DNA from: an uncultured Microbacterium sp.
GTDB lineage: Bacteria; Actinomycetota; Actinomycetes; Actinomycetales; Microbacteriaceae
Length of the DNA: 64,000 nucleotides
Assembly: GCA_913774665.1 (NCBI GenBank)
Contig: CAJYHN010000002.1
Span: 62,001 to 126,000, forward strand
Reading direction: 5' to 3'
The position numbers and the translations under genes are program-made. Within the stretch, counting starts at the first letter, position 1. Each line of letters begins with the position of its first letter. A model generated the notes under the pieces. The model was given only the letters and a program-made list of their open reading frames with translations. It did no database searches and had not been told where the DNA came from. Shown here piece by piece: positions 1 through 64,000 of the stretch.

Positions 1-186
1 GCCGCCGGTCGCGGCGCCCTCCGGCGCGGAGCCGTAGGGCGGAGCCGCCGGCGTCGCGGGGGAGTCGTACCCGGGGACGCCGTCGCTCTGCGGAGCGTAC
101 GGGAACGACGACGTGTCGCCTCCCGACGTGCTGTCGGACCCGGTGTGGTCGGGATGCTGCGGGTCGGTGGTGCGGTCGTCGCTCAC
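1..186 (-). CDS. Proline-rich protein, N-terminal fragment (cut by window edge)
   Basis: Reading leftward from a GTG at 186, the frame stays open for 62 codons to the window edge. The start is supported by AAAGGGG (198..192), five bases upstream. The visible residues are polar and rich in Pro, Gly, Ser, Asp and Tyr, with no hydrophobic segment yet. In actinobacteria such low-complexity N-termini often precede the membrane domain of small integral membrane proteins; that is inference here because no domain is visible. It is divergent from fabG. Confidence 0.6.
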   Translation of the reverse strand, partial: MSDDRTTDPQHPDHTGSDSTSGGDTSSFPYAPQSDGVPGYDSPATPAAPPYGSAPEGAATGG

Positions 187-278
187 GGGAGCCCCTTTCG
201 TCGCGCGTCCTCCCAGCGTTCCAGCGCCGCTGACCCCGTGTCAAACCTCGATGCGCGAGGCGATCGGGGCGGCCTCGG

Positions 279-284
279 TAGGCT
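279..284 (+). promoter_or_regulatory. Probable -10 element of fabG
   Basis: TAGGCT lies 37 bases before the fabG ATG, leaving a short leader with an AGGAG ribosome site. The same hexamer recurs as the -10 of other genes in this window. No convincing -35 is visible. Confidence 0.45.
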
Positions 285-321
285 GGGCCGGTTCCGTCAT
301 CGCAAGCGCAGGAGTCTCACC

Positions 322-1032
322 ATGTCCCAGGACCGCGTCGTCGTCGTCACCGGAGGAAACCGGGGCATCGGTCGAGCCATCGCCGAGCGTTTCGTCGCCG
401 AGGGGTGGAAGGTCGCCGTGACGGCCCGCTCGGGTGAGGGTCCCGAGGGGACGCTGACCGTCCGTGCCGACGTGACCGACGCCGCCACCGTCGACGCCGC
501 TTTCACTCAGGTCGAGGCCGAGCTCGGTCCGATCGCCGTGGTCGTGGCCAACGCCGGGGTGACGAAGGACACCCTGCTGCTGCGCATGACCGAAGACGAC
601 TTCGACAGCGTGGTGAACACGAATCTCGGGGGCGCGTTCCGCGTGGTCAAGCGCGCCTCGAAGGGCATGCTCAAGGCCCGGTGGGGTCGCGTCATCCTCA
701 TCTCCAGCGTCGTGGGCCTGTACGGCTCGGCCGGCCAGATCAACTACGCCGCCTCGAAGAGTGCTCTCGTCGGCTTCGCGCGCTCTCTGACCCGCGAGCT
801 CGGAGGGCGCGGAATCACCGCGAACGTGGTGGCTCCGGGCTTCATCGAGACCGACATGACGGCCGAGCTCCCCGCTGACACTCAGGCGGAGTACAAGAAG
901 AACATCCCCGCCGGGCGCTTCGCGTCGGCTGATGAGGTGGCGGGCGTCGTGACGTGGCTCGCCGGCGATGACGCGGCCTACATCTCGGGCGCCGTGATCC
1001 CCGTCGACGGCGGCCTGGGCATGGGCCACTGA
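322..1032 (+). CDS. fabG: 3-oxoacyl-ACP reductase / SDR-family oxidoreductase
   Basis: This is a 236-residue short-chain dehydrogenase. The Rossmann glycine motif TGGNRGIG is at residues 10-17, the NAG structural motif near 77, and the catalytic Ser129, Tyr142 and Lys146 (YAASK) are present. It ends in the usual PVDGGLGMGH tail of FabG proteins. Length and ending match the NADPH-dependent beta-ketoacyl-ACP reductase of fatty acid elongation. I chose the ATG at 322 because it has AGGAG about 9 bases upstream and starts just before the first beta strand; an in-frame extension to 145 has no site and reads as low-complexity. Other SDR substrates cannot be excluded from sequence alone. Confidence 0.9.
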   Translation: MSQDRVVVVTGGNRGIGRAIAERFVAEGWKVAVTARSGEGPEGTLTVRADVTDAATVDAAFTQVEAELGPIAVVVANAGVTKDTLLLRMTEDDFDSVVNTNLGGAFRVVKRASKGMLKARWGRVILISSVVGLYGSAGQINYAASKSALVGFARSLTRELGGRGITANVVAPGFIETDMTAELPADTQAEYKKNIPAGRFASADEVAGVVTWLAGDDAAYISGAVIPVDGGLGMGH

Positions 1033-1088
1033 CCGCGAGACGCGTCGGCGCGCTCTCCGGCGTCTCGGGGTGCGCGCCTAGCCCGGCT

Positions 1089-1296
1089 GCCGTCTGAGGG
1101 CGCGCGCCTGGCCCGGCCGCCGTCTGGGGGCGCGCCTGGCCCGGCCGCCGTTTAAGGGTGTGCGTCTGGCTTGGCCGCCGTCTGGGGGTGCGCGTCCAGC
1201 CTGCCCGCCGTCTGAGGGTGCGTGCCTGCCCCCGCCGCCGTCTCCGAGTGCGCGCCTGGCCCCGCCGCCGTCTGGGGGTGCGCGTCCGGCCCCGCC
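1089..1296. repeat. Tandem repeat, about 30 bp x 7, between convergent genes
   Basis: Seven consecutive units begin GCCGTCTG or a close variant at 1089, 1119, 1147, 1177, 1207, 1237 and 1267. All are 30 bp except the second, which is 28 bp. A partial unit precedes them. The array fills most of the 298-bp gap between fabG and the convergent hydrolase. The units have diverged at several positions, so the array is not very recent. Several frames are open through it, but the translations are low-complexity and I do not call a gene. Confidence 0.85.
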
Positions 1297-1330
1297 ACCG
1301 CGAGACCGCTCCTGCGGGGTCGAGCCGGTC

Positions 1331-2008
1331 TCATCGCACGGCGGCGACGAGCGTCTCGGCGAACTTCTGGGGCTGAGAGAACTGCGGCCAGTGGCCGGAG
1401 TCGAGCGTGACGACCTCGACGCTCTCGATACGGTCGACCTCGTCGGCGTAGGCCCCCCAGTCCGCGAGGACGCGGCGGAGCGACTCGGCATCGAGCTGCC
1501 CCGACAGGATCGTGACGGGGATCGCGAACCGCCGCTCGTCGGTCAAGGTGATCGGCGATGTCGGAACGCGGCCGGGAACGTCGACGACCTGCTTTGCGGT
1601 CCGCCGGCGCGTCTCGTCGTCGAGGTCGGCGACGTCGTCTTCGTCGAAGAAGTCCCACCCGGGGAAGCACACGACACCGTCCTCGACGGGGAACTCCGAG
1701 ATCATCGCGCCCGGGGGCGGGGTGATCGTGTCGACGAGGATGACGCGCGCGATCTGCGCGGGTCGTCGATCCGCCGCGCCCCATACGACGTTGCCGCCAC
1801 CCGAGTGCCCGACGAGCACGACGTTCTCGACGAGACGGTCGATTTCGCCGACGACGGCGTCGACCCAGTCGTCGATGACGAGGTCGCCCAGCGCGGGCCC
1901 GGGCAGGGTCACGGGGTGCGGTCGATGACCAGCCGCCTCGAGGGCGGGGGTGACGTCGTCCCACGACGACGCGTCGAGCCAGAGACCGGGAACCAGGATG
2001 ACGTCCAT
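1331..2008 (-). CDS. Alpha/beta hydrolase
   Basis: This is a 225-residue small alpha/beta hydrolase of the short, lidless type. It opens with VPGLWLDASSW (oxyanion region), and the nucleophile elbow GHSGGG places the catalytic serine at 69. A C-terminal DSGHWPQ segment supplies the likely catalytic histidine. The substrate is unknown; relatives are annotated as esterases or salicylate-esterase-like proteins. The ATG is preceded by TACGCT (2020..2015) with exactly six bases between, so the transcript is probably leaderless. It converges on fabG across the tandem repeat. Confidence 0.85.
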   Translation of the reverse strand: MDVILVPGLWLDASSWDDVTPALEAAGHRPHPVTLPGPALGDLVIDDWVDAVVGEIDRLVENVVLVGHSGGGNVVWGAADRRPAQIARVILVDTITPPPGAMISEFPVEDGVVCFPGWDFFDEDDVADLDDETRRRTAKQVVDVPGRVPTSPITLTDERRFAIPVTILSGQLDAESLRRVLADWGAYADEVDRIESVEVVTLDSGHWPQFSQPQKFAETLVAAVR

Positions 2009-2099
2009 GCGGCGAGCGTAGAACGGGCCTCCGACATCGGGAAGGGCACCGCTCGGACGCAGGCGGCTCTGCGCGGACGAGGGACCGAGCCCGAGCCGC

Positions 2100-2741
2100 T
2101 CAGCGGGGGAGCAGCGCGACGACCTGGGCCAGATCGACGGGTCCGATCACCAGATCCGCCCGCTCGCGCACGGCCGGCTTGGCGTTGAACGCCAGGCCGA
2201 GTCCCGCCGTCGCCATCATCTCCAGGTCGTTCGCTCCGTCGCCGATCGCGAAGGTGAGGGGGAGGGGCACGCCGAGTTCTCCTGCCCAGCGACGGAGCGT
2301 GTCGGCCTTGGCCGTGGCGTCCACGATCTCTCCCTCGACCTCTCCCGTGAGAGTGGCGTCGACGGCGCCGAGCCTGTTCGCGCGCCAGAGATCGACGCCG
2401 AGATCGGGGGCGACGGTGTCGAGGACTTCGTGGAAGCCGCCCGACACGACGCCGACGATTCCGCCGCGTTCGTGAACGGCGTCGATCAGCTCGCGGACGC
2501 CGGGCGTGGGCTCGATCCGGGCGATGGCCCGCGCGAAGGCCTCGGTCGGAACACCGGTGAGCGCCTGCACGCGGGAGCGGAGGCTCGTGGCGAAGTCGAC
2601 CTCTCCGCGCATGGCGGCCTCGGTGGCGGCGGCCACCTCGGGACCTCGGCCGGCTTCGTCAGCGAGGAGCTCGATGACCTCGTTGCGGATCAGGGTGGAA
2701 TCGGCGTCGAGAACGACGAGGAATCGGGCGGTCGCAGGCAC
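2100..2741 (-). CDS. serB: Phosphoserine phosphatase
   Basis: This 213-residue HAD phosphatase has the SerB signature. LDADSTLI at residues 11-18 holds the Asp nucleophile and acid/base pair (D12, D14). VVSGGF supplies motif II Ser, and the acidic motif GDGANDLEMM lies near residue 167. It hydrolyses L-3-phosphoserine in the last step of serine synthesis. It lacks the N-terminal ACT domain found in mycobacterial SerB2. The start is a GTG with TAGCGT (2754..2749) seven bases before it, again suggesting a leaderless mRNA. Confidence 0.92.
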   Translation of the reverse strand: MPATARFLVVLDADSTLIRNEVIELLADEAGRGPEVAAATEAAMRGEVDFATSLRSRVQALTGVPTEAFARAIARIEPTPGVRELIDAVHERGGIVGVVSGGFHEVLDTVAPDLGVDLWRANRLGAVDATLTGEVEGEIVDATAKADTLRRWAGELGVPLPLTFAIGDGANDLEMMATAGLGLAFNAKPAVRERADLVIGPVDLAQVVALLPR

Positions 2742-2942
2742 GCGCTCAACGCTAGCGGCTCAACGCGAGCGGCATGGCGGTCGCCCGTCGTGAGGCTCAT
2801 CCGCGGTCGCAGACACGCGCTCGACGCCGGCGTTCCGGTGCGCGGGTTCCGCGTCGCCGCCCGATGCAGGACGTGCTCCCGGGGACCCCGCGCCACGCAC
2901 CCGGGCGGCGTCATGCGGGGTCATCTCCCATCGCACCCGCCG

Positions 2943-2948
2943 TAGGCT
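2943..2948 (+). promoter_or_regulatory. Probable -10 element of luxS
   Basis: TAGGCT is 36 bases upstream of the luxS ATG. The short leader between them contains a small GCGG...CCGC stem and the AGAAGGGA ribosome site. No S-adenosylhomocysteine riboswitch fold is evident in this short leader. Confidence 0.4.
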
Positions 2949-2984
2949 TCTGCGGTACCCCCGCTTCTTCAGAAGGGACCTCGC

Positions 2985-3458
2985 ATGGCCGACGTCGAAA
3001 GCTTCACCCTCGATCACACCGCCGTCCTGGCGCCCTACGTGCGCCTCATCGGAACCGAGTCGGGCCCGCGAGGTGACGTCATCTCGAACTTCGACCTGCG
3101 TCTCGTGCAGCCGAACGAGCAGGAGATCCCCACGGCCGGTCTTCACACGATCGAGCACCTGCTCGCGAGCCTCGTGCGCGACCGGATCGACGGCCTCATC
3201 GACATCTCGCCGTTCGGCTGCCGCACGGGCTTCCACGTGATCATGTGGGGCGAGCCCTCGGTGGGCGACCTCGTCGACGCGATCACCGGCTCGCTCCGCG
3301 CGATCGTCGACGAGGTGCAGTGGGACGACGTCCCCGGAACCGACGCGTTCAGCTGCGGCAACTACCGCGACCACAGCCTGCACACCGCCAAGGAGTGGTC
3401 CAAGGAGGTTCTCGCCAAGGGCATCTCGCGTGACGCGTTCGAGCGCGTCGGCGTCTGA
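2985..3458 (+). CDS. luxS: S-ribosylhomocysteine lyase
   Basis: This 157-residue protein carries all LuxS hallmarks. The metal-binding HTIEHLL motif gives His54 and His58, FGCRTGF contains the catalytic cysteine at 79, and SCGNYRDH supplies the third metal ligand Cys124. It cleaves S-ribosylhomocysteine to homocysteine and the AI-2 precursor DPD, recycling the product of methyl transfer. The start is set by AGAAGGGA eight bases upstream. It stands alone, ending at a strong hairpin shared with convergent glgC. Nothing nearby points to AI-2 sensing, so a purely metabolic role is the simplest reading. Confidence 0.96.
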
Positions 3459-3470
3459 GGATTCCGATCC

Positions 3471-3521
3471 GGATGCCACGAGGGGCGGCGACCCGCGCGG
3501 TCGCCGCTCCTCTCGGCATCC
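3471..3521. terminator. Bidirectional terminator hairpin between luxS and glgC
   Basis: Two 23-bp arms (3471..3493 and 3499..3521) pair with about three mismatches around a five-base loop. There is no T tract. The outer ends of the stem are GGATGCC and GGCATCC, the 7-mer that is strongly over-represented in this window. Confidence 0.8.
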
Positions 3522-3554
3522 GGAGCCTCGCGGCATCCGGAGTCGTCCTCGCTG

Positions 3555-4799: not shown

Positions 4800-4875
4800 G
4801 GCACCACCCTAGGGCTCCGGCGGGCGAGCGGAAACACGTCTGCGGCGCGCCTCGCGCTGTACTACGGTTCGTTTC

Positions 4876-6066: not shown

Positions 6067-6197
6067 AACGTCCGCGTCGCTGGCGGAGCGGCAGTGCGCC
6101 GCGACCATGACGCGCGACGCGCGCGGGTGTGTCCGGCACTCTCCACAGGGGCCGCGTGGCATCCGGGACCGCCCGTCTCGGACAGTAGGCTAGAACC

Positions 6198-23760: not shown

Positions 23761-25971
23761 ATGAGCCTTCCCCCCTTCTCCTGCGTCCTCGTCGCCAACC
23801 GCGGCGAGATCGCGCGCCGGGTGTTCCGGACGCTGCGGCGTCTCGGCATCCGCTCGGTCGCCGTCTTCACCGACGCGGATGCCGCCGCTCCCCACACCCG
23901 CGAAGCCGATCACGCCGTGCGCGTGCCCTCGTACCTCGACGTCGATGCGGTGGTCGCCGCCGCGGTGTCAAGCGGGGCGGATGCCGTGCACCCGGGCTAC
24001 GGCTTCCTCAGCGAGAACGCCGGCTTCGCCCGCGCGTACGCGGAGGCCGGAATCGTGTTCGTCGGCCCGGGCGTCGAGGCGCTCGAGGTGATGGGCGACA
24101 AGATCCGCGCCAAGGAGCACGTCGCCGCCCACGACGTGCCGACCGTGCCGGGGTTCTCGGCGGTGGGTCTCAGCAAGGAACGCATCGCGGAAGAGGCCGA
24201 CCGCGCCGGATACCCCCTGCTCGTCAAGCCCTCCGCCGGTGGGGGCGGCAAGGGCATGACCGTGGCCACCGGGCCCGGCGACCTCGCCGACGCGCTCGCC
24301 ACCGCCCGCCGGGTCGCCGCCGCGGCCTTCGGCGACGACACCCTGCTGCTCGAGCGGCTGCTGGAGCGCCCGCGCCACATCGAGGTGCAGGTGCTCGCCG
24401 ACGGCCACGGCACGACCCTCTCGCTCGGCGAACGCGAGTGCACCCTGCAGCGGCGGCACCAGAAGGTGATCGAAGAGGCTCCCTCACCCGTCGTCGACCC
24501 CGCCACTCGCGCCCGCCTGGGCGAGGCCGCGGTCGCCGCCGCCCGCAGTGTCGGATACCTCGGCGCGGGGACCGTGGAGTTCCTCGTCGCCGGCGACCGG
24601 CTCGACGAGCCGTTCTTCATCGAGATGAACACGCGCCTGCAGGTCGAGCATCCCGTCACCGAGATGGTCACCGGCATCGACCTCGTCGAGCAGCAACTCC
24701 GGGTCGCCGCGGGCTTCGCGCTCGAGCTCGGCGAGATCCGCCTCGACGGACACGCGATCGAGGCGCGCGTGTACGCCGAGACGCCCGCGCGCGGATACCT
24801 TCCGGCGACCGGGACCGTGAGCCTGTGGCATCCGGGATCCGCCCGCGTCGACAGCGCCGTCGAGACCGGCAGCGTCATCAGCTCGCTGTACGACCCGATG
24901 ATCGCGAAGGTCATCGCCCACGGTCCCGACCGCGAGACGGCCCTGGCCCGGCTCGACGCCGCGCTCGCCGACACCGTCGTGCTCGGCGTCGACACGAACA
25001 TCGCCGATCTGCGGGCCCTGCTCGCCGATCCCGCCGTGCGCGCGGGGGACCTCGACACGGGGCTGCTGGATCGGCGAGGGACTCCGGAGGTCGCTGAGCC
25101 GCCGCGGGGTGCGCTCGCCGCCGTCGCTCGTCGGATCGTGGATGCCGAGACCCCGGACGACGGCTCGGTGTGGGGGCGCGTCGGGGCGTGGCGGGCCGGG
25201 GGAGCAGGGGCTCCCCGGACCGTGTGGCTGGAGGACGACGCCGGGCAGGTGCACTCCGTGACGCCGGGCGCCGCGGAGGACGCTGTCGTGACGGGAGGGC
25301 CGGCCGAGTACTGGGTGCATGCGGACGGAGGTGCGCACCGGCTGCGCACGGTCTCGCGACGGGATGCCGCCGCGCGTCGTCGAGCCGCAGCGAGCCGTGC
25401 CCCCGGCGCCGTCGACCCCGACCTCGTGGCCCCGCTTCCCGGCACCGTCGTCGCGGTGCACGTCGCCGACGGTGACCGCGTCGAGGCGGGCGCCCGGCTC
25501 GTCACGATCGAGGCGATGAAGATGGAGCACACGGTGACTGCGCCGCACGCGGGTACCGTGCGACTGCGCACGTCCCCGGGTGCGCAGGTGGCCCGAGACG
25601 CGGTGGTCGCGACGGTGCGCCCGGAAGTCGGTGAGCCCCACGATCACGCCGGGATCCCGGCATCCCCTCTGACAACCTCAGGGATCCGCACAACCTCTGT
25701 CGCCGAGGCGGGGGGTACGGCTGAGGATGTGCGAATCGCGGAGGTTCTGCCGGCGCCCGGCGCGCCCGTGCCCGCGAACCCCGCGCGCACAACCTCAGGG
25801 ATCCGCACAACCTCTGTCGCCGAGGCGGGGGATGCGGCTGAGGATGTGCGGATCGCGGAGGTTCTGCCGGAGCCCGGCGCGCCCCCTCGCCACCCCGCCG
25901 ACCAGTCGGAACCGCACGATCACGCCGGGATCCCGGCATCCACCCCATCCCACAAGGAGACCCACTCGTGA
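23761..25971 (+). CDS. accA1: Biotin carboxylase/carrier subunit with a repeat-derived C-terminal tail
   Basis: This is a 736-residue alpha subunit. The biotin carboxylase domain starts FSCVLVANRGEIARRVFRTL, with KPSAGGGGKGM as ATP-grasp loop and EMNTRLQVEHPVTE. The carrier domain has the biotinylated Lys587 in EAMKMEH. Homologues normally end about 40 residues after that lysine. Here about 110 further residues follow, encoded by two 27-bp direct repeats flanking two palindromic 73-bp units at 117-bp spacing. The tail is hydrophilic, has no known domain, and ends in a GTGA overlap with the dehydrogenase gene. The enzyme is otherwise complete. Confidence 0.9.
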   Translation: MSLPPFSCVLVANRGEIARRVFRTLRRLGIRSVAVFTDADAAAPHTREADHAVRVPSYLDVDAVVAAAVSSGADAVHPGYGFLSENAGFARAYAEAGIVFVGPGVEALEVMGDKIRAKEHVAAHDVPTVPGFSAVGLSKERIAEEADRAGYPLLVKPSAGGGGKGMTVATGPGDLADALATARRVAAAAFGDDTLLLERLLERPRHIEVQVLADGHGTTLSLGERECTLQRRHQKVIEEAPSPVVDPATRARLGEAAVAAARSVGYLGAGTVEFLVAGDRLDEPFFIEMNTRLQVEHPVTEMVTGIDLVEQQLRVAAGFALELGEIRLDGHAIEARVYAETPARGYLPATGTVSLWHPGSARVDSAVETGSVISSLYDPMIAKVIAHGPDRETALARLDAALADTVVLGVDTNIADLRALLADPAVRAGDLDTGLLDRRGTPEVAEPPRGALAAVARRIVDAETPDDGSVWGRVGAWRAGGAGAPRTVWLEDDAGQVHSVTPGAAEDAVVTGGPAEYWVHADGGAHRLRTVSRRDAAARRRAAASRAPGAVDPDLVAPLPGTVVAVHVADGDRVEAGARLVTIEAMKMEHTVTAPHAGTVRLRTSPGAQVARDAVVATVRPEVGEPHDHAGIPASPLTTSGIRTTSVAEAGGTAEDVRIAEVLPAPGAPVPANPARTTSGIRTTSVAEAGDAAEDVRIAEVLPEPGAPPRHPADQSEPHDHAGIPASTPSHKETHS
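25639..25665. repeat. 27-bp direct repeat, left copy
   Basis: Identical to 25915..25941, in the same reading frame of accA1, encoding HDHAGIPAS. It contains the perfect 14-bp palindrome GCCGGGATCCCGGC and ends in the over-represented GGCATCC. Confidence 0.95.
25674..25746. repeat. Palindromic repeat unit A inside accA1
   Basis: Arms of 24 bases at 25674..25697 and 25723..25746 are complementary with four mismatches around a 25-base spacer. The first arm begins AACCTCAGGGATCCGCACAA. It is a strong hairpin former located in coding sequence, repeated 117 bp further on. Confidence 0.88.
25791..25863. repeat. Palindromic repeat unit B inside accA1
   Basis: Near-copy of unit A, 117 bp (39 codons) downstream. 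Arms 25791..25814 and 25840..25863 pair with three mismatches. Unit B differs from A at a few positions, including one that improves arm pairing (CGGATC instead of CGAATC). Confidence 0.88.
25915..25941. repeat. 27-bp direct repeat, right copy
   Basis: Exact copy of 25639..25665, 276 bp away and in frame. The pair brackets both palindromic units, leaving the last ten or so codons of accA1 after it. Confidence 0.95.
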
Positions 25972-27749: not shown

Positions 27750-28555
27750 GCGCGTCGTTCTCGCTCGGTCCCGCGCTGCTCTTCGTGCCCGGCGACCGCC
27801 CGGAACGGCTGTCGAAGGCCCTGGAGAGGGCGGATGCCGCGATCCTCGACCTCGAAGACGCGGTTGCCCCGGATGCCAAGGCGCACGCCCGTGCGCAGCT
27901 CATCGCCGCCGACCCCGACCCTGAGCGGGTGATCGTGCGCGTCAACGGGCCAGAGACGCCGGATTTCGCGCTCGACCTCGACGCGCTCACGCACACCCGC
28001 GTGCGGCGCGTGATGGTCGCGAAGGCGGAGGCCCCGGCATCCCTCGCCGCTCTCGCGTCGTTCGAGGTGATCGCGCTGTGCGAGACGGCCCGGGGAGTCG
28101 GGCACGCCGAGCAGCTCGCGGCCCTGCCGCAGGTCGTGGCGCTCATGTGGGGCGCCGAGGACCTCGTCGCGAGCCTCGGCGGAACCTCGAGCCGGCGCGA
28201 CGACGGGTCTTATCGCGATGTGGCCCGCCTCGCGCGGGCGCGCGTACTGCTGGCCGCCGGGGCGTTCGGTAAGCGGGCGATCGACGCCGTGCACGTCGAC
28301 ATCGCCGACCTGAACGGCCTGTCGGACGAGGCGCGGGATGCCGCGGCATCCGGATTCGCGGCCACCGCGTGCATCCACCCGGGGCAGGTCGCGACGATCC
28401 GCGCGGCCTATGCCCCGTCTGCCGCGCAGGTGGCGTGGGCGCGCGGGGTGCTCGAGGCCGCGAAGCAGGAGCGGGGAGTGTTCCGCCACGAGGGGCGCAT
28501 GATCGACGAGCCGATCCTGCGCCACGCGCGGTCGGTGGTGGCGCGGGCGGGGTAG
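27746..28555 (+). CDS. CitE-like CoA ester lyase
   Basis: This 269-residue TIM-barrel protein has LLFVPGDRPERLSKAL, ILDLEDAV, and RVNGPETP, followed by ALCETARGVGHA and LMWGAEDL, which hold the acidic metal ligands. CACIHPGQVATI closes the barrel. The homologue Rv2498c sits at the same place in the M. tuberculosis locus, where CitE-like enzymes act on hydroxyacyl- or HMG-CoA-type thioesters. I chose GTG 27746 because GGGGGTGGG precedes it; an in-frame GTG at 27737 is possible. It is the last gene of the TetR operon. Confidence 0.88.
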   Translation: MSASFSLGPALLFVPGDRPERLSKALERADAAILDLEDAVAPDAKAHARAQLIAADPDPERVIVRVNGPETPDFALDLDALTHTRVRRVMVAKAEAPASLAALASFEVIALCETARGVGHAEQLAALPQVVALMWGAEDLVASLGGTSSRRDDGSYRDVARLARARVLLAAGAFGKRAIDAVHVDIADLNGLSDEARDAAASGFAATACIHPGQVATIRAAYAPSAAQVAWARGVLEAAKQERGVFRHEGRMIDEPILRHARSVVARAG

Positions 28556-37945: not shown

Positions 37946-38794
37946 TCAGAGCGGGTCCGGAAGCCGCTCGGCGAACGCCCGCAGCACGTCGGTCGTCCCG
38001 CCGTCGATCTTCACGGCCGCGCGGCGGTCGGCGCGGGTCTCGCCACGGTTGATGATGACGACGGGCAGGCGGCGACGGCGCGCGCGCTCCACCAGCCGGA
38101 TACCGGAGTTCACCACGAGCGACGACCCCGCGATGACGAGGGCGTCGCTCGCGTGCACGAGCTGCTCGGCCTCGCGGAACTTCTCGACCGGGATGTACTC
38201 GCCGAAGAACACGACGTCGGGCTTGAGCGTGCCCCCGCACACCGAGCACGTGGGCACGACGAAACCGTCGGCGGACGCGGGCGTCACGTCCCCGTCGGGT
38301 CCGAGCTCGACGTTCTCGGGAAGACTGATCCACGGATTGTCGGCCTCGACCCGCTCGGCCAGATCGCGGCGGTCGAACACCTGACCGCACTGCAGGCAGC
38401 CCACGCGGCGCATCGTGCCGTGCAGCTCGACGACACGGCTGCTCCCGGCGCGCACGTGCAGGCCGTCGACGTTCTGCGTGATCACGCCGTTGGCGACTCC
38501 GGCGGACTCGAGATCGGCGAGGGCGCGATGACCGTCGTTCGGCCGTGCGGCGGCGAACACCTTCCACCCCAGGTGGCTGCCCACCCAGTAGCGACGCCGC
38601 GCGTCGGCGCTCGAGAGGAACTGCTGCGCCGTCATCGGCGTGCGAGTGGGAGCGCCCTTCCCGCGATAGTCGGGGATCCCCGAATCGGTCGACACGCCCG
38701 CGCCGGTGAGAACGGCGATCCTGCGCCCGGCGAGGACCTCGACGGCACGATCGACGGATGCCGAGAACTCGGCATCCTGCACCGTGTCGGTCAT
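37946..38794 (-). CDS. Sir2-family NAD-dependent protein deacylase
   Basis: This 282-residue sirtuin has [15 protein letters not shown] (NAD-binding), TQNVDGLH, the catalytic His in ELHGTMRR, two zinc Cys pairs (CLQCG and CSVCG), and VFFGEYIP. An insertion of about 25 residues lies between the Cys pairs. It removes acyl groups from lysine using NAD, with tyrosine/arginine desuccinylase determinants not obvious. GGAGGTGCGC precedes the ATG. It ends 27 bases from the convergent PaaX gene. Confidence 0.92.
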
Positions 38795-46521: not shown

Positions 46522-47568
46522 TCAGCCCCGGCTCGCCGCCGCCACCCGGGCGGCCTCGCGCGCTGCGCCGAGGTTCTTGCGGCCCGCCCGCGAGCCGGCG
46601 AGCTTGGCGGCGATGTGCTCGCGCACCGTCACCGGCTCGTACAGCGCCGGGGCCTCGGCCGAGACGAAGTGGGGCAGCGGGGCGATCACGGCATCCGCGT
46701 TGCCGTCGTGGAAGAACGCCGCCGAGCGTCGACGCTCGATCGTGCCGTCGATGACCGGCGGCTTCACCCGATGCAGGGTCGACATCCACCGGTCGTTCGT
46801 CAGACGGGCCGCGACATCACCCAGGTTGACGAGCAGGGCGCCCCGGGCCGGCGAGACGTCGTTCCAGGAGCCGTCCTGGCCGAGAACCTGGAGTCCCGCG
46901 ACCTGGTCCGCCCAGAGCACGGTGACGAGACCGAAGTCGGTGTGCTCGCCCATGCCGGTCAATTCCGCTCCGAGCTCGATCGAGCCCGGCGGGAGGGCGT
47001 AGTTGTTCATGCGCAGGACGTCGATGGAGTGATCGGTGACGTCGTCGAAGAAGTCGTCGGGCACCCGAAGTGCCGCCGCGAAGATCCGCGTCAGAGTCTG
47101 TGCGACACGCCGCGCCTCTCCGTAGTAGTCGCGGACGGCCGGCTCGAAGACGCGCGTCTCGGCGGGCCAGGTGTTCTCCGCGTAGTCCGCCGCGGTCGCC
47201 GTGCTGCCCGGGTAATCGGCGGCCGAGGTCCCCACGTTGAACGCCTCGAAGAAGTCGTTCATCCGCGTCACCGGATCGACGCCGAGGCTGTAGCTCAGGG
47301 ACTCGCTCTTGGGCGGGCTGTACCCGCGATTCTCGGCCGCGGGCCGCACGTAGGCCTTCTTGGCCTCCAGCGGCAGGGCGAAGAATTCGTCGAGACCCTC
47401 CGTGAGCTGCGAGATCACGGCATCCGGGATGCCATGGCCCACCACCTGCATGAAGCCCACGGTGCGACACGCGTGGTCGACCGCGGCGACCACCGCGGCT
47501 CGGGCATCGGGGGAGCCGGGGCCCACCCAGGCGGAGATGTCGATCATCGGCACAGAGAACGCGGGCAT
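46522..47568 (-). CDS. 2-oxoglutarate/Fe(II)-dependent oxygenase, isopenicillin N synthase family
   Basis: This 348-residue oxygenase has an N-terminal DIOX_N region (VPMIDISAWV, GFMQVVGHGIPD) and a jelly-roll core with the iron triad His209, Asp211 (GEHTDFG) and His266 (STLHRV). An RRRSAAFF segment carries the 2-oxoglutarate-binding Arg and Ser. Actinobacterial relatives are of unknown substrate; a beta-lactam role is not implied. TAGCGT (47580..47575) is six bases before the ATG, so the mRNA is likely leaderless. A 39-bp inverted repeat lies just upstream. Confidence 0.9.
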   Translation of the reverse strand: MPAFSVPMIDISAWVGPGSPDARAAVVAAVDHACRTVGFMQVVGHGIPDAVISQLTEGLDEFFALPLEAKKAYVRPAAENRGYSPPKSESLSYSLGVDPVTRMNDFFEAFNVGTSAADYPGSTATAADYAENTWPAETRVFEPAVRDYYGEARRVAQTLTRIFAAALRVPDDFFDDVTDHSIDVLRMNNYALPPGSIELGAELTGMGEHTDFGLVTVLWADQVAGLQVLGQDGSWNDVSPARGALLVNLGDVAARLTNDRWMSTLHRVKPPVIDGTIERRRSAAFFHDGNADAVIAPLPHFVSAEAPALYEPVTVREHIAAKLAGSRAGRKNLGAAREAARVAAASRG

Positions 47569-47681: not shown

Positions 47682-48494
47682 TCACGGCATCCGGAAGGGA
47701 TGCCGCCGACGCCGGCGCCCGCGTGCCGTCGCCCGGGACCCCGCGTACAGCAGCGCCCCGATCGCCGTGGCGAAGAAACCGATCGGGAGGTCGGTCGTCA
47801 CGGCCAGCGCGATCGAGGCCCACACCGTGCCGAGCGTGAGGGCGATCGAGAGGGCGATGCCGCGGCCGGGCGTCCGCGCGAGCACCTGCGCCGCGGCCGG
47901 GGGGCCGATCAGCAGAGCGAACATCAGCAGGGCGCCCACCATCGGCACGCTCACTGTCGTCGCCGCGGCGATCACGAGAGCGAAGACGAGGTCCACTCCC
48001 GTGACGGGTATTCCGCGTGCGGCGGCGAGGGACGGCGAGACGGATGCCAGCAGCAGCGGCCGCGCGATGAGCGCGACGAGCGCGAGACAGCCGATCGCGA
48101 GCAGGCCCATCGTGGTCAGCTGATCGGGGGACACCCCGAGGATCTGGCCGAAAAGCAGGGCGAACACCTGCGCCGAGTACTCGCGGGAGCGGCTGAGGAA
48201 CAGGGCGCCGAGGGCGAGCATCGTCACGAGGGTGAGGGCCGTGACGACGTCATGCCGTGCGCGGCGACCGAGGAGCACGATGCCCACGGCCCCGCCCGCG
48301 GCGAAGACGCCGAGGCCGACCAGCGGATTCACTCCGATGAGGACGGCCCCCGCGGCGCCGGCGAACGCGCCATGAGGTACCGCGTGTGCGAAGAAGGCGT
48401 TGCCGCGCAGCACGACGAAGAAGCCGACGACCCCGGCGACCACCGCCACGATCGTCCCTCCCGCCCAGGCGGTCATGAGGTACGGCGCGAACAT
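47682..48494 (-). CDS. znuB: Zinc/manganese ABC transporter permease (second)
   Basis: This 270-residue ABC-3 family permease has about eight hydrophobic helices. GNAFFAHAVPHGAFAGAAGAVLIGVNPLVG is the conserved cytoplasmic-coupling region, and FALLIGPPAAAQVLA is another family signature. The Arg-rich tail is cytoplasmic. It pairs with the preceding permease, giving a heterodimeric channel. ATG 48494 overlaps the upstream stop; a GTG one codon earlier is also possible. It is the last gene of the operon. Confidence 0.88.
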   Translation of the reverse strand: MFAPYLMTAWAGGTIVAVVAGVVGFFVVLRGNAFFAHAVPHGAFAGAAGAVLIGVNPLVGLGVFAAGGAVGIVLLGRRARHDVVTALTLVTMLALGALFLSRSREYSAQVFALLFGQILGVSPDQLTTMGLLAIGCLALVALIARPLLLASVSPSLAAARGIPVTGVDLVFALVIAAATTVSVPMVGALLMFALLIGPPAAAQVLARTPGRGIALSIALTLGTVWASIALAVTTDLPIGFFATAIGALLYAGSRATARGRRRRRHPFRMP

Positions 48495-51292: not shown

Positions 51293-51300
51293 CTGTGTTG

Positions 51301-51386
51301 TGCGCGAGGGGGGACTTGAACCCCCACGCCCGTTAAAGGGCACTAGCACCTCAAGCTAGCGCGTCTACCTATTCCGCCACCCGCGC
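51301..51386 (-). tRNA. tRNA-Leu (anticodon GAG)
   Basis: The 86-nt minus-strand sequence folds as a class II tRNA. A 7-bp acceptor stem starts GCGCGGG, the anticodon loop is CTTGAGGT, there is a long variable arm and the T-loop is GGTTCAAGTCC. The anticodon GAG reads CUC/CUU leucine codons. The CCA end is not encoded. Confidence 0.97.
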
Positions 51387-51527: not shown

Positions 51528-52829
51528 ATGCCCGAGCTCGAATCCGACATCCCCGAGGTCGCCCGCGTCGCGCGCGACCTCATCCGGTTCGACACCTCGA
51601 ATTACGGCGGGGGCCGTGCCGAGGGCGAGCGCGAGGCGGCCCAGTACGTCGGCGCGTACCTCGAAGCCCTCGGTCTCGAGGTCGAGTACTACGAGCCCGT
51701 CGATCGACGCACCAACGTCTGCGCCCGCATTCCGGGTCGAGACCCCGGCAAGCCCGCCCTGATCCTCCACGGCCACCTCGACGTGGTGCCCGCCGTCGCC
51801 GCAGACTGGAGCGTCGATCCGTTCGCGGGCGAGATCCGCGACGGCATCCTGTGGGGTCGCGGGGCGGTGGACATGAAGGACATGGATGCCATGATCCTCA
51901 CCGCCGTGGCCGACGTGCTGCGCGCGGGGGAGCAGCCCGAGCGCGACATCATCGTCACCTTCTTCGCCGACGAGGAGAACGGCGGGGTCGAGGGCTCGGC
52001 GCTCGTCATCCGCGACCGACCCGAGTGGTTCGCCGGAGCGACCGAGGCCATCAGCGAGGTCGGCGGGTACTCGATCGCCGTCGGCGACCGCCGCGCGTAC
52101 CTGCTGCAGGTGGGGGAGAAGGCCCTCGTGTGGATCAGGCTCGTCGCCCGCGGCCGTGCGGGCCACGGCAGCGGTCTGCACGCCGACAACGCCGTCACGA
52201 AGCTCGCCGAGGCCGTCGCGGCCCTCGGCCGTACCGAGTGGCCGATCCGCCTGACCGACACGACCGCCCAGCTACTCGAGGGACTGGCCGAGATCACCGG
52301 CGACGACGCGGGCGACCCCGACGCGCTCGCTTCGCGCACCGGTGCGGCATCCAGCTTCATCCGCTCGACCCTGCGCACCACGACGAACCCGACCGGTCTC
52401 ACCGCGGGGTACAAGCACAACGTCATCCCCGACCGCGCCGAGGCGCTCATCGACGTGCGGGTGCTGCCCGGCACCGAGGAGGCGGCCTTGGCCGACATCC
52501 GCCGCATCATCGGCCCCGACGTCGAGATCGAGATCGTCCACCAGGACATCGGACTCGAGGTGCCGTTCTCGGGCGACCTGGTCGACGCCATGGTCGCCCA
52601 GCTCACCCGTCACGACCCGGGCGTGCCGGTCCTGCCGTACCTGATGGGCGGGGGCACCGACAACAAGGCGCTGTCGGCCCTCGGCATCGCCGGTTACGGA
52701 TTCGCGCCGCTGCGTCTGCCCGCCGATCTCGACTTCACCGGGATGTTCCACGGTGTCGACGAGCGCGTCCCCATCGACGCGCTCACCTTCGGTCAGCGAG
52801 TTCTCGCCGACCTCATCCGCACGTACTGA
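51528..52829 (+). CDS. M20/M25/M40 family metallopeptidase
   Basis: This 433-residue zinc hydrolase has [10 protein letters not shown] (first metal His/Asp), [13 protein letters not shown] (bridging Asp), and FADEENGG (general-base Glu). A dimerisation domain (RGRAGHGSG) is inserted in the middle. It may be a dipeptidase or a deacylase of amino acids. TACCGT (51515..51520) lies seven bases before the ATG and there is no ribosome site, so a leaderless mRNA is likely. uppP follows nine bases later and may be co-transcribed. Confidence 0.9.
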
Positions 52830-59565: not shown

Positions 59566-59653
59566 CCGTTACCGCCGGGTTTCCGCGCGTCGGAGCGCAC
59601 GACGAGCGCCCGGGTTAGACTGAGATACCGCACGAACGAGACGAGGAGTCCTC

Positions 59654-59905
59654 ATGTTCCAGGGTTTGACCGGATGGCACCTGCTCATCGTTCTCGCTGT
59701 CATCCTTCTTCTTTTCGGCGCCGCCAAGCTCCCCGCTCTCGCCAAGAGCATGGGTCAGTCGGCACGAGTGTTCAAGAGTGAGATGAAGGAGATGAAGCGC
59801 GACGACGAGGTCGCTGCCGCATCCGAAGCCCCGCGCGCCACCGACGTCGGCACCACGCCGACCGTCGCTCCCGAGCCGCGCAGGTCGACCGACCCCACCG
59901 TCTAA
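59654..59905 (+). CDS. tatA: Sec-independent (Tat) translocase subunit TatA
   Basis: This 83-residue protein has one N-terminal helix (LLIVLAVILLLFG) followed by the hinge FGAAKLPALAKSMGQS and an amphipathic helix, then a charged tail. It forms the Tat pore for folded proteins with TatC. TAGACT (59616..59621) provides a -10, and GAGGAG lies before the ATG, so this gene has a leader unlike many neighbours. Confidence 0.96.
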   Translation: MFQGLTGWHLLIVLAVILLLFGAAKLPALAKSMGQSARVFKSEMKEMKRDDEVAAASEAPRATDVGTTPTVAPEPRRSTDPTV

Positions 59906-59908
59906 CCC

Positions 59909-60730
59909 GTGGCGACGGCAGGACCGCCGCGCATCGACGTGCCCGAAGGGCCGCGGCGCGACAAGCGCATGTCGATCGGGGCGCACCTGGTCGAGCTGCG
60001 CAAGCGGCTCATGATCGCGGCGCTCGCCCTCGTGGTGGGTATGGTGGTCGCGTTCATCATCACCGACCCGATCATCCACCTCATCACCGAGCCCATCCGC
60101 GTCATCGCGGAACGGCGCGGCGATGACTTCTCGGCGCTGAACTTCACCTCGGTGACCTCGGCGTTCGACCTGCGCATGCGCATCGCGTTCTCGATCGGCA
60201 TCTTCCTCTCGGCGCCGGTGTGGCTCTGGCAGATCTGGGCGTTCATCATGCCCGGGCTCACGCGCAAAGAGATCCGTTACACGGTCGGCTTCGTGGCATC
60301 CGCCGTCCCGCTCTTCTTCGTGGGCTGCTGGGTGGGTCTGCTGATCGTCCCGCACGTGATCGAGCTGATGTGGGGCTTCACGCCCGAGGGCGGCGTCAAC
60401 TTCTACAACGCGGTCGACTACTACGACTTCGTCTTCAAGCTGATGATCGTCGTCGGCGTCGCGTTCGTGCTGCCGGTGTTCCTCGTGGCGCTGAACGTCG
60501 CGGGCATCATGAGCGGAAAGGCGATCCTCAAGGGCTGGCGCGTGGCGATCCTCATCGCCACCCTGTTCTCGGCCCTGGCCACCCCCGCGGCCGACATCAT
60601 CAGCATGCTGATGCTCGCCGGCATCCTCACCGTGCTGTTCTTCGCGGCGGCAGCGGTCTCGATGCTGTTCGACCGGCGCAAGGCCCGCCGCCTCGCCGCG
60701 GCCGAGATGCCCTCGGGGCCCATCGCGTGA
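59909..60730 (+). CDS. tatC: Sec-independent (Tat) translocase subunit TatC
   Basis: This 273-residue protein has six membrane helices and the TatC signatures HLVELRKRL near residue 31, and FILSAP-like FLSAPVWLWQIWAFIMPGL, which form the twin-arginine signal recognition site. The GTG start is three bases after the tatA stop. The stop overlaps the helicase GTG, so all are in one unit. Confidence 0.95.
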   Translation: MATAGPPRIDVPEGPRRDKRMSIGAHLVELRKRLMIAALALVVGMVVAFIITDPIIHLITEPIRVIAERRGDDFSALNFTSVTSAFDLRMRIAFSIGIFLSAPVWLWQIWAFIMPGLTRKEIRYTVGFVASAVPLFFVGCWVGLLIVPHVIELMWGFTPEGGVNFYNAVDYYDFVFKLMIVVGVAFVLPVFLVALNVAGIMSGKAILKGWRVAILIATLFSALATPAADIISMLMLAGILTVLFFAAAAVSMLFDRRKARRLAAAEMPSGPIA

Positions 60731-63210
60731 GTTCACCGAGTCCGGCCGAGCGTTTCGCTCGCGCCGCCGCCCGCTCCACGCACCCGCACACGGCCGACTT
60801 CGCCGAGATGCAGCGCTTCGACCTCGACGATTTCCAGATCGCCGGATGCCACGCCCTCGAGGACGGCCGGAGCGTTCTGGTGGCCGCGCCCACCGGCGCC
60901 GGAAAGACGATCGTCGGCGAGTTCGCGATCCACCTCGCGATGCTCGAGCCCGGTGACAAGGCGTTCTACACCACCCCCATCAAGGCGCTCTCGAACCAGA
61001 AGTTCCATGAGTTGCAGGAGGTGTACGGCGACGACGAGGTCGGCCTGCTGACGGGTGACACCAACATCAACGCCTCGGCGCGCATCGTCGTGATGACCAC
61101 CGAGGTGCTGCGCAACATGCTGTACGCCGACTCGCCGGCCCTGCGGGGTCTGCGCTTCGTCGTGATGGACGAGGTGCACTACCTCGCCGACCGCTTCCGC
61201 GGCGCGGTGTGGGAAGAAGTGATCATCCACCTCCCGCCGTCGGTCAAGCTCGTGTCGCTGTCGGCGACCGTCTCCAACGCCGAGGAGTTCGGCGACTGGC
61301 TCGACACCGTGCGCGGCGACACCGAGGTGATCGTGTCTGAGACCCGTCCGGTTCCTCTCGAGCAGCACGTGCTCGTCCGCGGCGACCTTCTGCCGCTGTT
61401 CGACGATCGGGCCGGAGTCGCGACCGCGCAGGTCAATCAGGAGCTGCTGCGCATCCGCGGCGGCAACGCCGGGGGGTACGAGAACAACCGGCGCGCGCAG
61501 GAGTATCGCTCCCAGCGGCACGCGGGCGGCCCCCGCCACGCCCATCAGCGTCGCGGCGGGCACAAGCCGCTGCGCGCGCAGCAGGGCCCGCGCATCGAAC
61601 GCATCGACCGGCCCGAGGTCGTCGAGCTGCTGCAGCGCAACCACCTTTTGCCGGCGATCTTCTTCATCTTCAGCCGCGCCGGGTGCGATGCCGCCGTCCA
61701 GCAGCTGCGCCGTGCCAACGTCCGGCTCACCTCCGCCGAGGAGCGCGTCGAGATCCGCCAGATCGTCGACGAACTGACCTTCACCCTCAAGGACGAGGAT
61801 CTCGCCGTCCTGCGCTTCTGGGAGTGGCGCGACAACCTCGAACGCGGGATGGCCTCGCACCACGCGGGTCTGCTGCCGGCCTTCAAGGAGGTCGTCGAGG
61901 AGCTGTTCCGCCGCAAGCTCGTCAAGGTCGTGTTCGCGACCGAGACGCTCGCCCTCGGCATCAACATGCCGGCGCGTACCGTCGTGCTCGAGAGGCTCGA
62001 GAAGTTCAACGGCGAGGCCCGCGTCGCCATCACCTCGGGGGAGTACACGCAGCTCACCGGTCGCGCCGGCCGTCGCGGCATCGACGTCGAGGGCCACGCG
62101 GTCGTGCAGTTCACCGAGGGCCTCGACCCGCAGTCGGTCGCCGCGCTCGCCTCGCGCCGCACCTACCCGCTCAACTCGAGCTTCCGGCCCACCTACAACA
62201 TGGCCGTGAACCTCATCGACCAGTTCGGTCGTGCGCGGGCGCGCGAGATCCTCGAGTCGTCGTTCGCGCAGTTCCAGGCCGACCGCTCGGTGGTGGGCCT
62301 CGCCCGCCAGGTGAAAGAAGCCGAGGAGTCGCTCGCCGGCTACGAGAAGGCGATGACGTGCGACCGCGGCGATTTCCGCGAGTACTCCACCATTCGACGC
62401 GAGCTGAGCGACCTCGAGAAGATCAATAGACGGGATGCCACGGCTCCGCGCCGTCTGCGCGACGAGCGGCAGCAGCAGATCCAGTCGCTGCGCAAGCGCA
62501 TGCAGCGCCACCCGTGCCACTCGTGCCCCGATCGCGAGGCTCACGCCCGCTGGGCGGAGCGCTACTGGAAGCTCAAGCGCACCACCGACAAGACCCGCCA
62601 GCAGATCGACCAGCGCACCGGCACCGTCGCGCGCGTGTTCGACCGGGTCGTCGAAGTGCTCGCGGCGCTGGAGTACGTGGCGATCGAAGACGACGGCGCC
62701 ACGGTGCTCACGCGCGCCGGCCGCACGATGCGCCGCATCTACGGAGAGCGCGACCTGCTCGTGGCCGAGTCGCTGCGCCAGGGACTGTGGGAGGGACTGG
62801 ACGCCCCCTCGCTCGCCGCCCTCGCCTGCTGCCTCGTGTACGAACCACGCCGCGACGAAGCGGGACCGGGGGAGCGCGGCCTGCCCCGCGGCGCCTTCCG
62901 CGGGGCCCTCGACGCCACGCAGACGCTCTGGCAAGAGCTCGACGATCTCGAACGCGACCACCGGTTGCCGGGCTCGGAGTCGCCCGCCTCGGGCCTCGCG
63001 CCGGCGATGCACGCGTGGGCGAAGGGCCTCCCGCTCGACAGCGTGCTGACCCTGGCCGACATGGCCGCGGGTGACTTCGTGCGCTGGGCGAAGCAGACGA
63101 TCGACCTGCTCGACCAGATCTCGCTGGTCGCCGAACCGCCGCTCGCCAAGACCGCGCGCACGGCGCTCGACTCCGTGCGCCGCGGGATCGTGGCCTACAC
63201 GTCGGCATGA
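60727..63210 (+). CDS. helY: Ski2/HelY-type DEAD/DEAH RNA helicase
   Basis: This 827-residue helicase has motif I APTGAGKT, Ia TTPIKALSNQK, II DEVHY, III SLSATVSN, V TETLALGINMPA, and VI QLTGRAGRRGID. An insert of about 60 residues rich in Arg, His and Gln follows motif III. The C-terminal arch/DSHCT-type region has HPCHSCPDREAHARW. It resembles actinobacterial HelY/MTR4-like helicases thought to act in RNA turnover. GTG start overlaps the tatC stop and the stop overlaps the lnt ATG. Confidence 0.92.
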   Translation: MSSPSPAERFARAAARSTHPHTADFAEMQRFDLDDFQIAGCHALEDGRSVLVAAPTGAGKTIVGEFAIHLAMLEPGDKAFYTTPIKALSNQKFHELQEVYGDDEVGLLTGDTNINASARIVVMTTEVLRNMLYADSPALRGLRFVVMDEVHYLADRFRGAVWEEVIIHLPPSVKLVSLSATVSNAEEFGDWLDTVRGDTEVIVSETRPVPLEQHVLVRGDLLPLFDDRAGVATAQVNQELLRIRGGNAGGYENNRRAQEYRSQRHAGGPRHAHQRRGGHKPLRAQQGPRIERIDRPEVVELLQRNHLLPAIFFIFSRAGCDAAVQQLRRANVRLTSAEERVEIRQIVDELTFTLKDEDLAVLRFWEWRDNLERGMASHHAGLLPAFKEVVEELFRRKLVKVVFATETLALGINMPARTVVLERLEKFNGEARVAITSGEYTQLTGRAGRRGIDVEGHAVVQFTEGLDPQSVAALASRRTYPLNSSFRPTYNMAVNLIDQFGRARAREILESSFAQFQADRSVVGLARQVKEAEESLAGYEKAMTCDRGDFREYSTIRRELSDLEKINRRDATAPRRLRDERQQQIQSLRKRMQRHPCHSCPDREAHARWAERYWKLKRTTDKTRQQIDQRTGTVARVFDRVVEVLAALEYVAIEDDGATVLTRAGRTMRRIYGERDLLVAESLRQGLWEGLDAPSLAALACCLVYEPRRDEAGPGERGLPRGAFRGALDATQTLWQELDDLERDHRLPGSESPASGLAPAMHAWAKGLPLDSVLTLADMAAGDFVRWAKQTIDLLDQISLVAEPPLAKTARTALDSVRRGIVAYTSA

Positions 63211-64000
63211 GCGCCGTGACGACGCCCCGGGGGGCAGCGGTTGCTCCGCTGCGCCTCGCTTTCGCGGCGCCCCTCGCCGTGGTGGCGGGGCTGCTGCTGG
63301 TCACCGCTTTCCCCGCCCTCGCCTGGTGGCCGATGGCGTTCCCCGCCGTCGCCCTCGCGTTGGTGACCCTCATCGGCCGCCGGTTCTGGTCGGCCGTGCT
63401 GATCGGGTTCCTCTTCGGGGTGGCGTTCTTCTCTGTCAACCTGCTGTTCACCGCTCGCTACCTCGGACCCGTCCCGTGGGCGGCCCTGTTCGTCCTCGAA
63501 GCGTTGCTCACAGCCGTTCTGGCGGCGCCGATCGCCCTGGCCTATCGGTGGATGCCGCGCATCGCGCCGGGGCGCGTGGGACGGCTCCTGCTGCTCCCCG
63601 CGCTCGTCGCGGCGCTGTGGACCCTCCGGGAGCAGATCGTCGGCTCGTGGCCGTACGGCGGCTTCCCCTGGGGGCGCATCGGCGTCTCGCAGGTCAACAG
63701 CCCCTTCGCCGAGGTGGCGTCGTGGGTGGGTATGTCGGGGCTGTCCTTCCTCGTGGTGCTGTTCTGCGCGATGGCCGTGGAGTTCGTGCGCGGCGGCCGC
63801 ATCCGTCGGGTGACCGGCGCGGTCCCCGCGGCGGCGGTGCTCGTCGTGCTGGTGGCGTTGCCCGCGTTCCCCACCGCCGACGCGGGCTCGATCCGCGTGG
63901 GCGCGGTGCAGGGCAACGGTCCGGCGGGGTACTTCGACCAGCGCACGCGCAACGCGGTGTTGAACGCGCAGCTCGCGGCATCCGCCCCTCTGTTCGGTCA
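63207..64000 (+). CDS. lnt: Apolipoprotein N-acyltransferase, N-terminal part (cut by window edge)
   Basis: The frame is open from the ATG overlapping the helY stop to the window end (264 residues visible). The first about 220 residues form several membrane helices, with SWPYGGFPWGRIG and MSGLSFLVVLFCAM, typical of Lnt. The nitrilase-like periplasmic domain then begins (IRVGAVQGNGP) and is truncated by the edge. Lnt adds the third acyl chain to lipoproteins. Its position after helY is conserved in actinobacteria. Confidence 0.9.
   Translation, partial: MSAVTTPRGAAVAPLRLAFAAPLAVVAGLLLVTAFPALAWWPMAFPAVALALVTLIGRRFWSAVLIGFLFGVAFFSVNLLFTARYLGPVPWAALFVLEALLTAVLAAPIALAYRWMPRIAPGRVGRLLLLPALVAALWTLREQIVGSWPYGGFPWGRIGVSQVNSPFAEVASWVGMSGLSFLVVLFCAMAVEFVRGGRIRRVTGAVPAAAVLVVLVALPAFPTADAGSIRVGAVQGNGPAGYFDQRTRNAVLNAQLAASAPLFG

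Follow-up and report, generated by a model that had tools for sequence, protein, structure and literature searches.

Why does the seven-nucleotide word GGATGCC, together with its complement GGCATCC, recur so densely in a 64,000 bp stretch of DNA from an uncultured Microbacterium sp. (the window; bases 62001–126000 of a 793 kb contig)? The original prediction, based on the letters of the window, proposed a selected DNA word acting as an uptake sequence, a recombination signal, a nucleoid-protein site or a modification target. The answer that we favour, and consider probable, is that GGATGCC is the predicted target of a conserved orphan β-class DNA methyltransferase of the Microbacteriaceae, its copies being kept at a steady density and its dialects following the enzyme. 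By a core gene, the nearest named relatives of this genome are M. testaceum and a strain filed beside M. testaceum (92–94 % identity); on these records we assign the host to that group of Microbacterium and base the family name used below.

Abundance of the word within and between genes

The window contains 115 copies, 60 of GGATGCC on the plus strand and 55, read as GGCATCC, on the minus strand, against 14.2, 15.3 and 20.5 expected from Markov models of orders 1, 2 and 3, respectively. The strong over-representation seen by eye is therefore real, although the figures given for it (57 and 54) were not exact. By z, no 7-mer ranks above the word at orders 1 and 3, and at order 2 only a single-copy word does; the maximal-order model expects 80.8 copies, but it already contains the inflated sub-words of GGATGCC. 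The whole genome (3.58 Mb) carries 5487 copies, 2725 and 2762 on its two strands. In a 356 kb comparison with single-base variants, GGATGCC was 6.7-fold over-represented (548 vs 81.7 expected) and no variant exceeded about 1.9-fold (GGATACC, 28 vs 15.1), so that the equal enrichment of variants that might have undone the claim was not found. The variant CGATGCC, originally described as far rarer, is indeed less frequent than the word, with 40 copies in the window, but it is not rare, occurring close to its own expectation (245 vs 216). A purine follows 94 % of the copies in this genome, extending the word to GGATGCCR; genome G070 shares this preference, which genera g94 and g116 lack.

Codon usage was examined in 1,155,663 bp of the genome holding 1758 copies (one complete contig, another almost complete, and four 20 kb samples), where 998 genes were called with a simple codon-model caller and subjected to 20 synonymous-codon shuffles within genes. 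The called genes contain 1447 copies, compared with a mean of 404 after shuffling. The coding use of GAT GCC and GCA TCC that had been pointed out was evident from the separate frames, with 594 observed vs 106 shuffled copies for GAT-GCC and 377 vs 12 for GCA-TCC. An artefact of codon or dipeptide usage could draw on the common GAT-GCC and GGC-ATC frames, the latter being mostly accounted for by usage (247 of 376); nevertheless, it is refuted by the shuffle, by short intergenic gaps denser than genes and by the existence of dialects (see below), and we give it practically no weight. In the same shuffle, single-base variants stayed within 1.31-fold, apart from depleted ones. Among the latter are the synonymous precursors GGACGCC (453 vs 858) and GGCCTCC (224 vs 683), as a conversion of synonymous precursors towards the word predicts, and several other variants reaching as low as 0.46. 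A simple C-to-T deamination of GGACGCC was rejected as the source of the word, because the overall count of this sequence matches its expectation (163 vs 164) and its shortfall in the shuffle is that expected of precursor conversion.

The occurrence of the word in intergenic DNA was also confirmed: 202 copies fall in the 76.9 kb made up of 20–400 bp gaps separating called genes (2.63/kb), where 18–43 were expected, and the density is 1.74/kb in all uncalled DNA and 1.48/kb in called genes. Convergent gaps are the richest (4.44 sites/kb), followed by tandem (2.57) and divergent ones (1.86). Both orientations are present in 16 of 98 convergent gaps, and such pairs can form terminator stems. There was no clear bias towards either end of genes in this genome, the quintiles being nearly flat. 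The hairpin and inverted pairs of the window are the following:

Positions 3471–3477, plus strand: GGATGCC, left arm of a terminator-like hairpin 3′ of the called gene ending at 3458
Positions 3515–3521, minus strand: GGCATCC, right arm of the hairpin shared with the copy at 3471
Positions 3532–3538, minus strand: GGCATCC, an extra copy just past the hairpin 3471/3515
Positions 23845–23883: inverted pair, GGCATCC (23845) and GGATGCC (23877)
Positions 28336–28351: close inverted pair, GGATGCC (28336) and GGCATCC (28345)
Positions 38756–38777: close inverted pair, GGATGCC (38756) and GGCATCC (38771)
Positions 47419–47433: close inverted pair, GGCATCC (47419) and GGATGCC (47427)
Positions 47686–47704: close inverted pair, GGCATCC (47686) and GGATGCC (47698)
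Positions 51843–51890: inverted pair, GGCATCC (51843) and GGATGCC (51884)

The terminator stem originally placed at 3471–3521 corresponds to the pair 3471/3515. The three close pairs listed with it, starting at 28336, 47419 and 47686, are all present, although in the first two the second coordinate was off by one (28345 and 47427).

As for related genera, a comparison that the original prediction had called for, the word is common in the Microbacteriaceae. The median density of GGATGCC is 1.30/kb in 88 other members of the genus, 75 of which have at least 0.6/kb, whereas in 19 other families of the order (59 genomes) the median is 0.26/kb and the maximum 0.47. Across 293 further genomes of the family, from 84 genera, the genus medians range from 0.08 to 1.62/kb and exceed 0.6 in 38 genera. 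The 13 genus members below 0.6/kb comprise five with a known other dialect, G050 with GGATGC[CTG]G in 20 kb, G026 without the enzyme described below, G039, which is 44 % complete, and G035, G040, G061, G078 and G088, which are unexplained. These properties, namely persistence in a codon-aware test, higher density between genes, spread in the family and changes of dialect, agree with the proposal of a selected DNA word.

Strand order and spacing of the copies

Neighbouring sites in the genome lie in opposite orientation more often than in the same one (1076 vs 676, z 9.6). Same-strand pairs are scarce up to about 500 bp, with 9 vs 29 expected at 8–30 bp, 46 vs 94 at 30–100 bp and 93 vs 134 at 100–200 bp; opposite-strand pairs exceed expectation in the same three intervals (58 vs 29, 111 vs 94 and 159 vs 134) and are near it beyond 600 bp. 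The coefficient of variation of same-strand gaps is 0.89 for the word and 1.02–1.12 for six control words. Likewise, the difference between strand counts varies less than Poisson statistics predict: the variance ratio falls from 0.55 in 5 kb windows to 0.50 (10 kb), 0.37 (20 kb) and 0.34 (40 kb), compared with 0.78–2.42 for seven control words; the flip rate alone would give 0.63–0.67, so the observed balance is tighter (p 0.007–0.033). In smaller samples from other genomes, G034, G070 and G018 agree with this strand order and G204 does so in part, the alternation of neighbours alone giving z values of 2.9 (G070), 2.6 (G018), 2.2 (G204), 1.3 (G034) and 0.3 (G226). A set of 52 loci has 893 opposite and 668 same-orientation neighbours, although these loci are orthologous and do not constitute independent evidence. 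From site to site, orientation has an autocorrelation of −0.221 at lag 1 and close to zero at lags 2–4; the value at lag 5, −0.104, is about 4 sigma and comes from one of 12 lags inspected.

There was no strand skew along two contigs of the genome (786 kb of one of them). This rules out strand polarity, including polarity towards the terminus of the FtsK orienting polar sequence (KOPS) type, and bears out the argument made originally from the near 1:1 strand balance, which is even tighter than chance.

The strand data also bear on a Chi-like signal that the helicase-nuclease AdnAB would recognise in one orientation; each strand would then need its own copies, and alternation would follow. The word resembles the Chi sites of RecBCD and AddAB in being short, GC-rich and non-palindromic, its orientation seems to matter, and a polar signal without a preferred direction of breaks could produce both the strand-separate repulsion and the balance. 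Additionally, proteins with a PDDEXK_1 domain, assigned to AdnAB by domain and length only, occur in 148 of 150 family genomes, usually two in each. However, they are just as present where the word is absent, the leading-strand skew characteristic of Chi was not observed along the two contigs, on which the position of the replication origin was not located, and a palindromic dialect, GGATCC, would be odd for a polar signal. RecC was found in none of the 150 family genomes, which rules out a Chi of the RecBCD type, the enzyme here being of the AdnAB type. Whether AdnAB responds to Chi at all is stated to be unknown (PMC4824097) or unclear (PMC13309787). We regard a Chi-like role as unlikely; if AdnAB did read the word, this would bear on the question of whether AdnAB has a Chi.

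A DNA uptake sequence is a slightly better candidate than Chi, albeit still a doubtful one. A competence receptor, such as a Tad/Flp-type pilus, would prefer the word, and biased uptake and recombination would spread it, as in Neisseria and Haemophilus. Like the uptake sequences of Neisseria and the Pasteurellaceae, the word is non-palindromic, iterated and balanced between strands, occurs in terminator-like hairpins and has dialects; its density and its inverted pairs in convergent gaps also fit. So does its scarcity in an apparent island of this genome (24 sites in 36 kb vs 178 in 100 kb). Conversely, uptake of double-stranded DNA would offer no obvious cause for strand-specific repulsion, and the changes of word coincide with changes in the methyltransferase. 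There is also no clear intragenic end bias, unlike that reported for the Pasteurellaceae by van Passel (PMC2346458). Competence and preferential uptake are at most predicted here: this genome has a ComEC-domain protein, but 148 of 150 family genomes have one whether or not they carry the word, so that it provides no contrast, and pilus genes were outside this test. The gene content consequently does not discriminate for or against the uptake and recombination roles named in the original prediction.

A word-poor stretch of about 44 kb (G000:C1:about 100001–144000) has a lower GC content at both edges and looks like an acquired island.

Dialects and the orphan methyltransferase

Other words replace GGATGCC in some lineages, and all of them start with GGAT. 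Three of the 88 genus genomes use GGATCC, with 6067 (G043), 6168 (G057) and 8244 (G064) copies genome-wide, that is 1.84–2.23/kb, when the genus median is 0.34 and the next highest value is 0.50; in these three genomes GGATGCC is down to 0.25–0.35/kb. The abundance of GGATCC was first noticed in G057, which is among the genomes with least GGATGCC. The dialect GGATGGC was first suggested by 20 kb samples of G032 and G038 and then confirmed by genome-wide counts of 3546 and 3158 copies, respectively, vs 412–1374 in the other 86 genomes. A survey of 80 named loci, limited to local samples of 13–21 kb, added GGATCC in M. gubbeenense, M. azadirachtae and two further Microbacterium, GGATGGC in M. 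oryzae, and GGATGCG in a LacPavin metagenome-assembled genome and in Schumannella soli. A nucleoid or chromosome-organising protein binding the word would suit its genome-wide spread, and the strand order suggests a spatial rule, but each change of dialect would require a matching change in such a protein; we consider this role improbable.

The genome has a single match to PF01555, outside the window:

G000:C7:20205–21158 (= L121:9205–10158), plus strand: candidate methyltransferase, the only PF01555 match in this genome

Its order of motifs (DPPF, a variable region, then FAGSGT) is that of the β class, and it combines PF01555 with DPP[FY]. The enzyme is homologous to the RsrI and CcrM methylases, its solved relatives including RsrI, CcrM and MboIIA, and from the motif the modified base would be adenine. 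It thus resembles orphan β-class adenine methyltransferases (CcrM, YhdJ; relatives of RsrI), although its scores are far below the NCBIfam cut-offs for the CcrM and PRK11524 models, the latter of which we take to be YhdJ, and its specificity is predicted only. As in orphan enzymes, and unlike restriction-modification systems, no restriction partner was seen at its locus in this genome: a Pfam scan of the 17 open reading frames (ORFs) around it in this genome detected no endonuclease, the matches being MMPL, 3-keto-disaccharide hydrolase, LplA, MauE, luciferase-like, esterase, GalK and GalT, with six of the 17 ORFs lacking any match. The gene shares four bases with the end of lplA, which is the immediate upstream neighbour in 54 of 80 named loci; in 96 of 100 loci an lplA is present at some position.

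Most of 44 genomes yielded strong matches to this enzyme, which were weaker in G026, G198 and G267 and absent in G177. With a profile of 15 orthologs, 84 of the 88 genus genomes matched with E values no higher than 7e-140 (77 as one piece, seven as two), the exceptions being G026, G059 and the incomplete assemblies G039 and G046. Of 293 other family genomes, 258 have the enzyme, 2 have it partially and 33 gave no match, at a cut near 1e-90 and with at most seven candidates scored per genome, so that some absences may be misses. We interpret the enzyme as an orphan maintained by vertical descent. Matches with one internal stop, due perhaps to decay or to match overrun, occurred in genera g38, g87, g70, g48 and g41. 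Among the 19 other families sampled, only f6 (G093, G111, G127 and G142) and f20 (G109, G125 and G140) have clear orthologs; some f6 and f20 genomes have raised GGATGGC (up to 0.40/kb), as does G091 of f4, although without the methyltransferase.

The enzyme covaries with the word in this sample. All 97 enzymes whose genomes have a clear GGATGCC excess carry Gly at residue 110, a position that is Gln (four) or Glu (three) in all seven GGATCC enzymes. The 97 come from 67 of 72 named loci (at least 3-fold excess) and 30 of 32 genomes (at least 1.0/kb), the other seven, assigned to GGATGCC by default, having Gly as well; the count left out six enzymes of other genera, with three Gly, two Glu and one Ser. 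Pro252, present in 97 of 97, is Ala in the three GGATGGC enzymes, but also in one of two GGATGCG enzymes. In an enzyme tree of 46 rows, G064 falls inside the clade of G034 with support 100/99, and the GGATCC lineages have two separate origins both there and in the control LplA tree, a quick tree of 37 rows. Both GGATCC lineages show faster divergence of the enzyme: its distance ratio to LplA is 1.17 and 1.19 in the two clades, compared with 0.99 ± 0.05 (maximum 1.14) in 82 species labelled GGATGCC. Also, among genomes at least 95 % complete, the median density of GGATGCC is 0.56/kb with the enzyme (n = 219) and 0.32/kb without it (n = 23; p = 0.001, kinship ignored). Dialects thus probably track the core orphan methyltransferase, although the link is statistically modest and unproved. 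Because of this tracking, a modification target is the best supported of the functions originally proposed, as a prediction.

Several results weigh against GGATGCC being the target of this enzyme. Outside the counted set, residue 110 is Gln in G161, which lacks a strong word, Gln or Glu in G157 and G160, and Ser in G206 (words were sampled for G161, not for G157 and G160). The ratio in the GGATGGC clade, 1.07, lies inside the null; the parallel overlap of changed conserved columns is weak (p 0.02–0.05), and the absence of parallel change in LplA is a weak control, one clade having only 0–1 changes in conserved columns. The first 20 sequences had pointed to a different specificity residue (‘basic to Ser/Thr’), but G087, G076 and G210 refuted it. 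An apparent truncation of the enzymes in G032 and G038 was likewise rejected, being an effect of the start assigned to them. Genomes without the enzyme are not below their sisters within genera g79, g90 and g117, and G059 has 0.99/kb; conversely, many genera keep the enzyme without GGATGCC excess, and no strong word was found in G088 and G061, which also keep it. Strand order is absent in G226, from a high-density genus, and repulsion was not seen between palindromic GGATCC sites in G057, which together rule out repulsion as a universal property. Finally, MutS was not found in nine of nine genomes searched, the control search being positive in 11 of 14 known genomes, which makes classical methyl-directed mismatch repair unlikely as the reader of a mark.

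A possible strand mark and its relation to known iterated words

If GGATGCC is the recognition sequence of the orphan methyltransferase, selection, or a drive linked to repair, would maintain the accumulating copies at about one per strand per 1.3 kb, and most positions of each strand would fall within about a kilobase of a copy. A change in enzyme specificity would let the old word decay and a new one accumulate (GGATCC, GGATGGC or GGATGCG). A nearby second copy on the same strand would add little and one on the other strand would not interfere, which could explain the alternation of neighbours. That the enzyme recognises and methylates the word, and what purpose the mark serves, are points that we infer. 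The strand-specific crowding would be natural if each copy marked one strand, and it points to separate marking of the two strands, for instance as a signal of parental or new strand. More tentatively, and with a good deal less confidence than in the target itself, we envisage a strand-marking code in these MutS-less bacteria: the orphan methyltransferase would mark one strand, alternating and balanced copies would tell the parental from the new strand during repair, replication control or break resection, and word, enzyme and spacing rule would co-evolve. Were the mark to separate old from new strands without MutS, it would bear on replication accuracy in such bacteria.

The closest parallel is found in the highly iterated palindromes (HIPs) of cyanobacteria, which according to PMC4390886 reach 500–2500 copies per Mb, include GGGATCCC, and, for HIP1 and alternate HIPs, have matching methyltransferases. 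GGATGCC, with about 1500 copies per Mb, is within that range; it is also far above expectation, occurs in and between genes, is substituted by other words in some lineages and has dialects probably linked to a methyltransferase. It differs in that the main word is of 7 bp and non-palindromic (as is GGATGGC, GGATCC being a palindrome), in the phylum, in the failure to find MutS and in the strand alternation, which a palindrome cannot show. The word is best read as a non-palindromic relative of HIP words, and not as a HIP as defined. Iterated words with a linked methyltransferase were already known from cyanobacteria; the main word described here is non-palindromic, with a readable strand order.

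The same comparison raises the option that mutation or repair bias alone makes the word, with no benefit, through deamination or Elhai's ratchet. Elhai proposed (PMC4390886) that HIPs arise from methylation-directed mismatch repair, a model that allows them as by-products; as set out there it needs repair of the MutS/MutL type, and MutS was not found in the nine genomes searched. A strand-specific dependence on density over hundreds of bases would also be hard to obtain from context-dependent mutation, and the undepleted GGACGCC is contrary to simple C-to-T change. We consider bias alone improbable.

The main word is informative because it is non-palindromic: the genome sequence itself reveals strand use, when the palindromy of cyanobacterial words hides which strand matters. 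The natural switches to GGATCC (two lineages) and to GGATGGC (one lineage) are, moreover, ready-made tests of the function of the word. A search of the open literature for the word, for an actinobacterial uptake sequence and for a Microbacterium methylome, with subscription papers outside its scope, found no report of the word.

Other observations were made in the course of the analysis. The one phage examined, Microbacterium phage Min1, has no excess of the word (16 vs 12.8), and its annotations include PurL (L251:40945–43272) and an acyl-CoA desaturase (L251:43713–44810), unusual cargo for a phage. A record titled Planococcus sp. APC 4015 (L183) contains a Microbacterium-like locus with GGATGCC excess and is probably a mislabelled or mixed genome. 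A possible second word appeared in 80 kb of the genome under study, with 36 strand counts of CCTGCAGG vs 4.4 and 114 of CTGCAG vs 40. The sole RNA gene detected in the window is a tRNA-Leu (gag), on the minus strand at 51300–51386.

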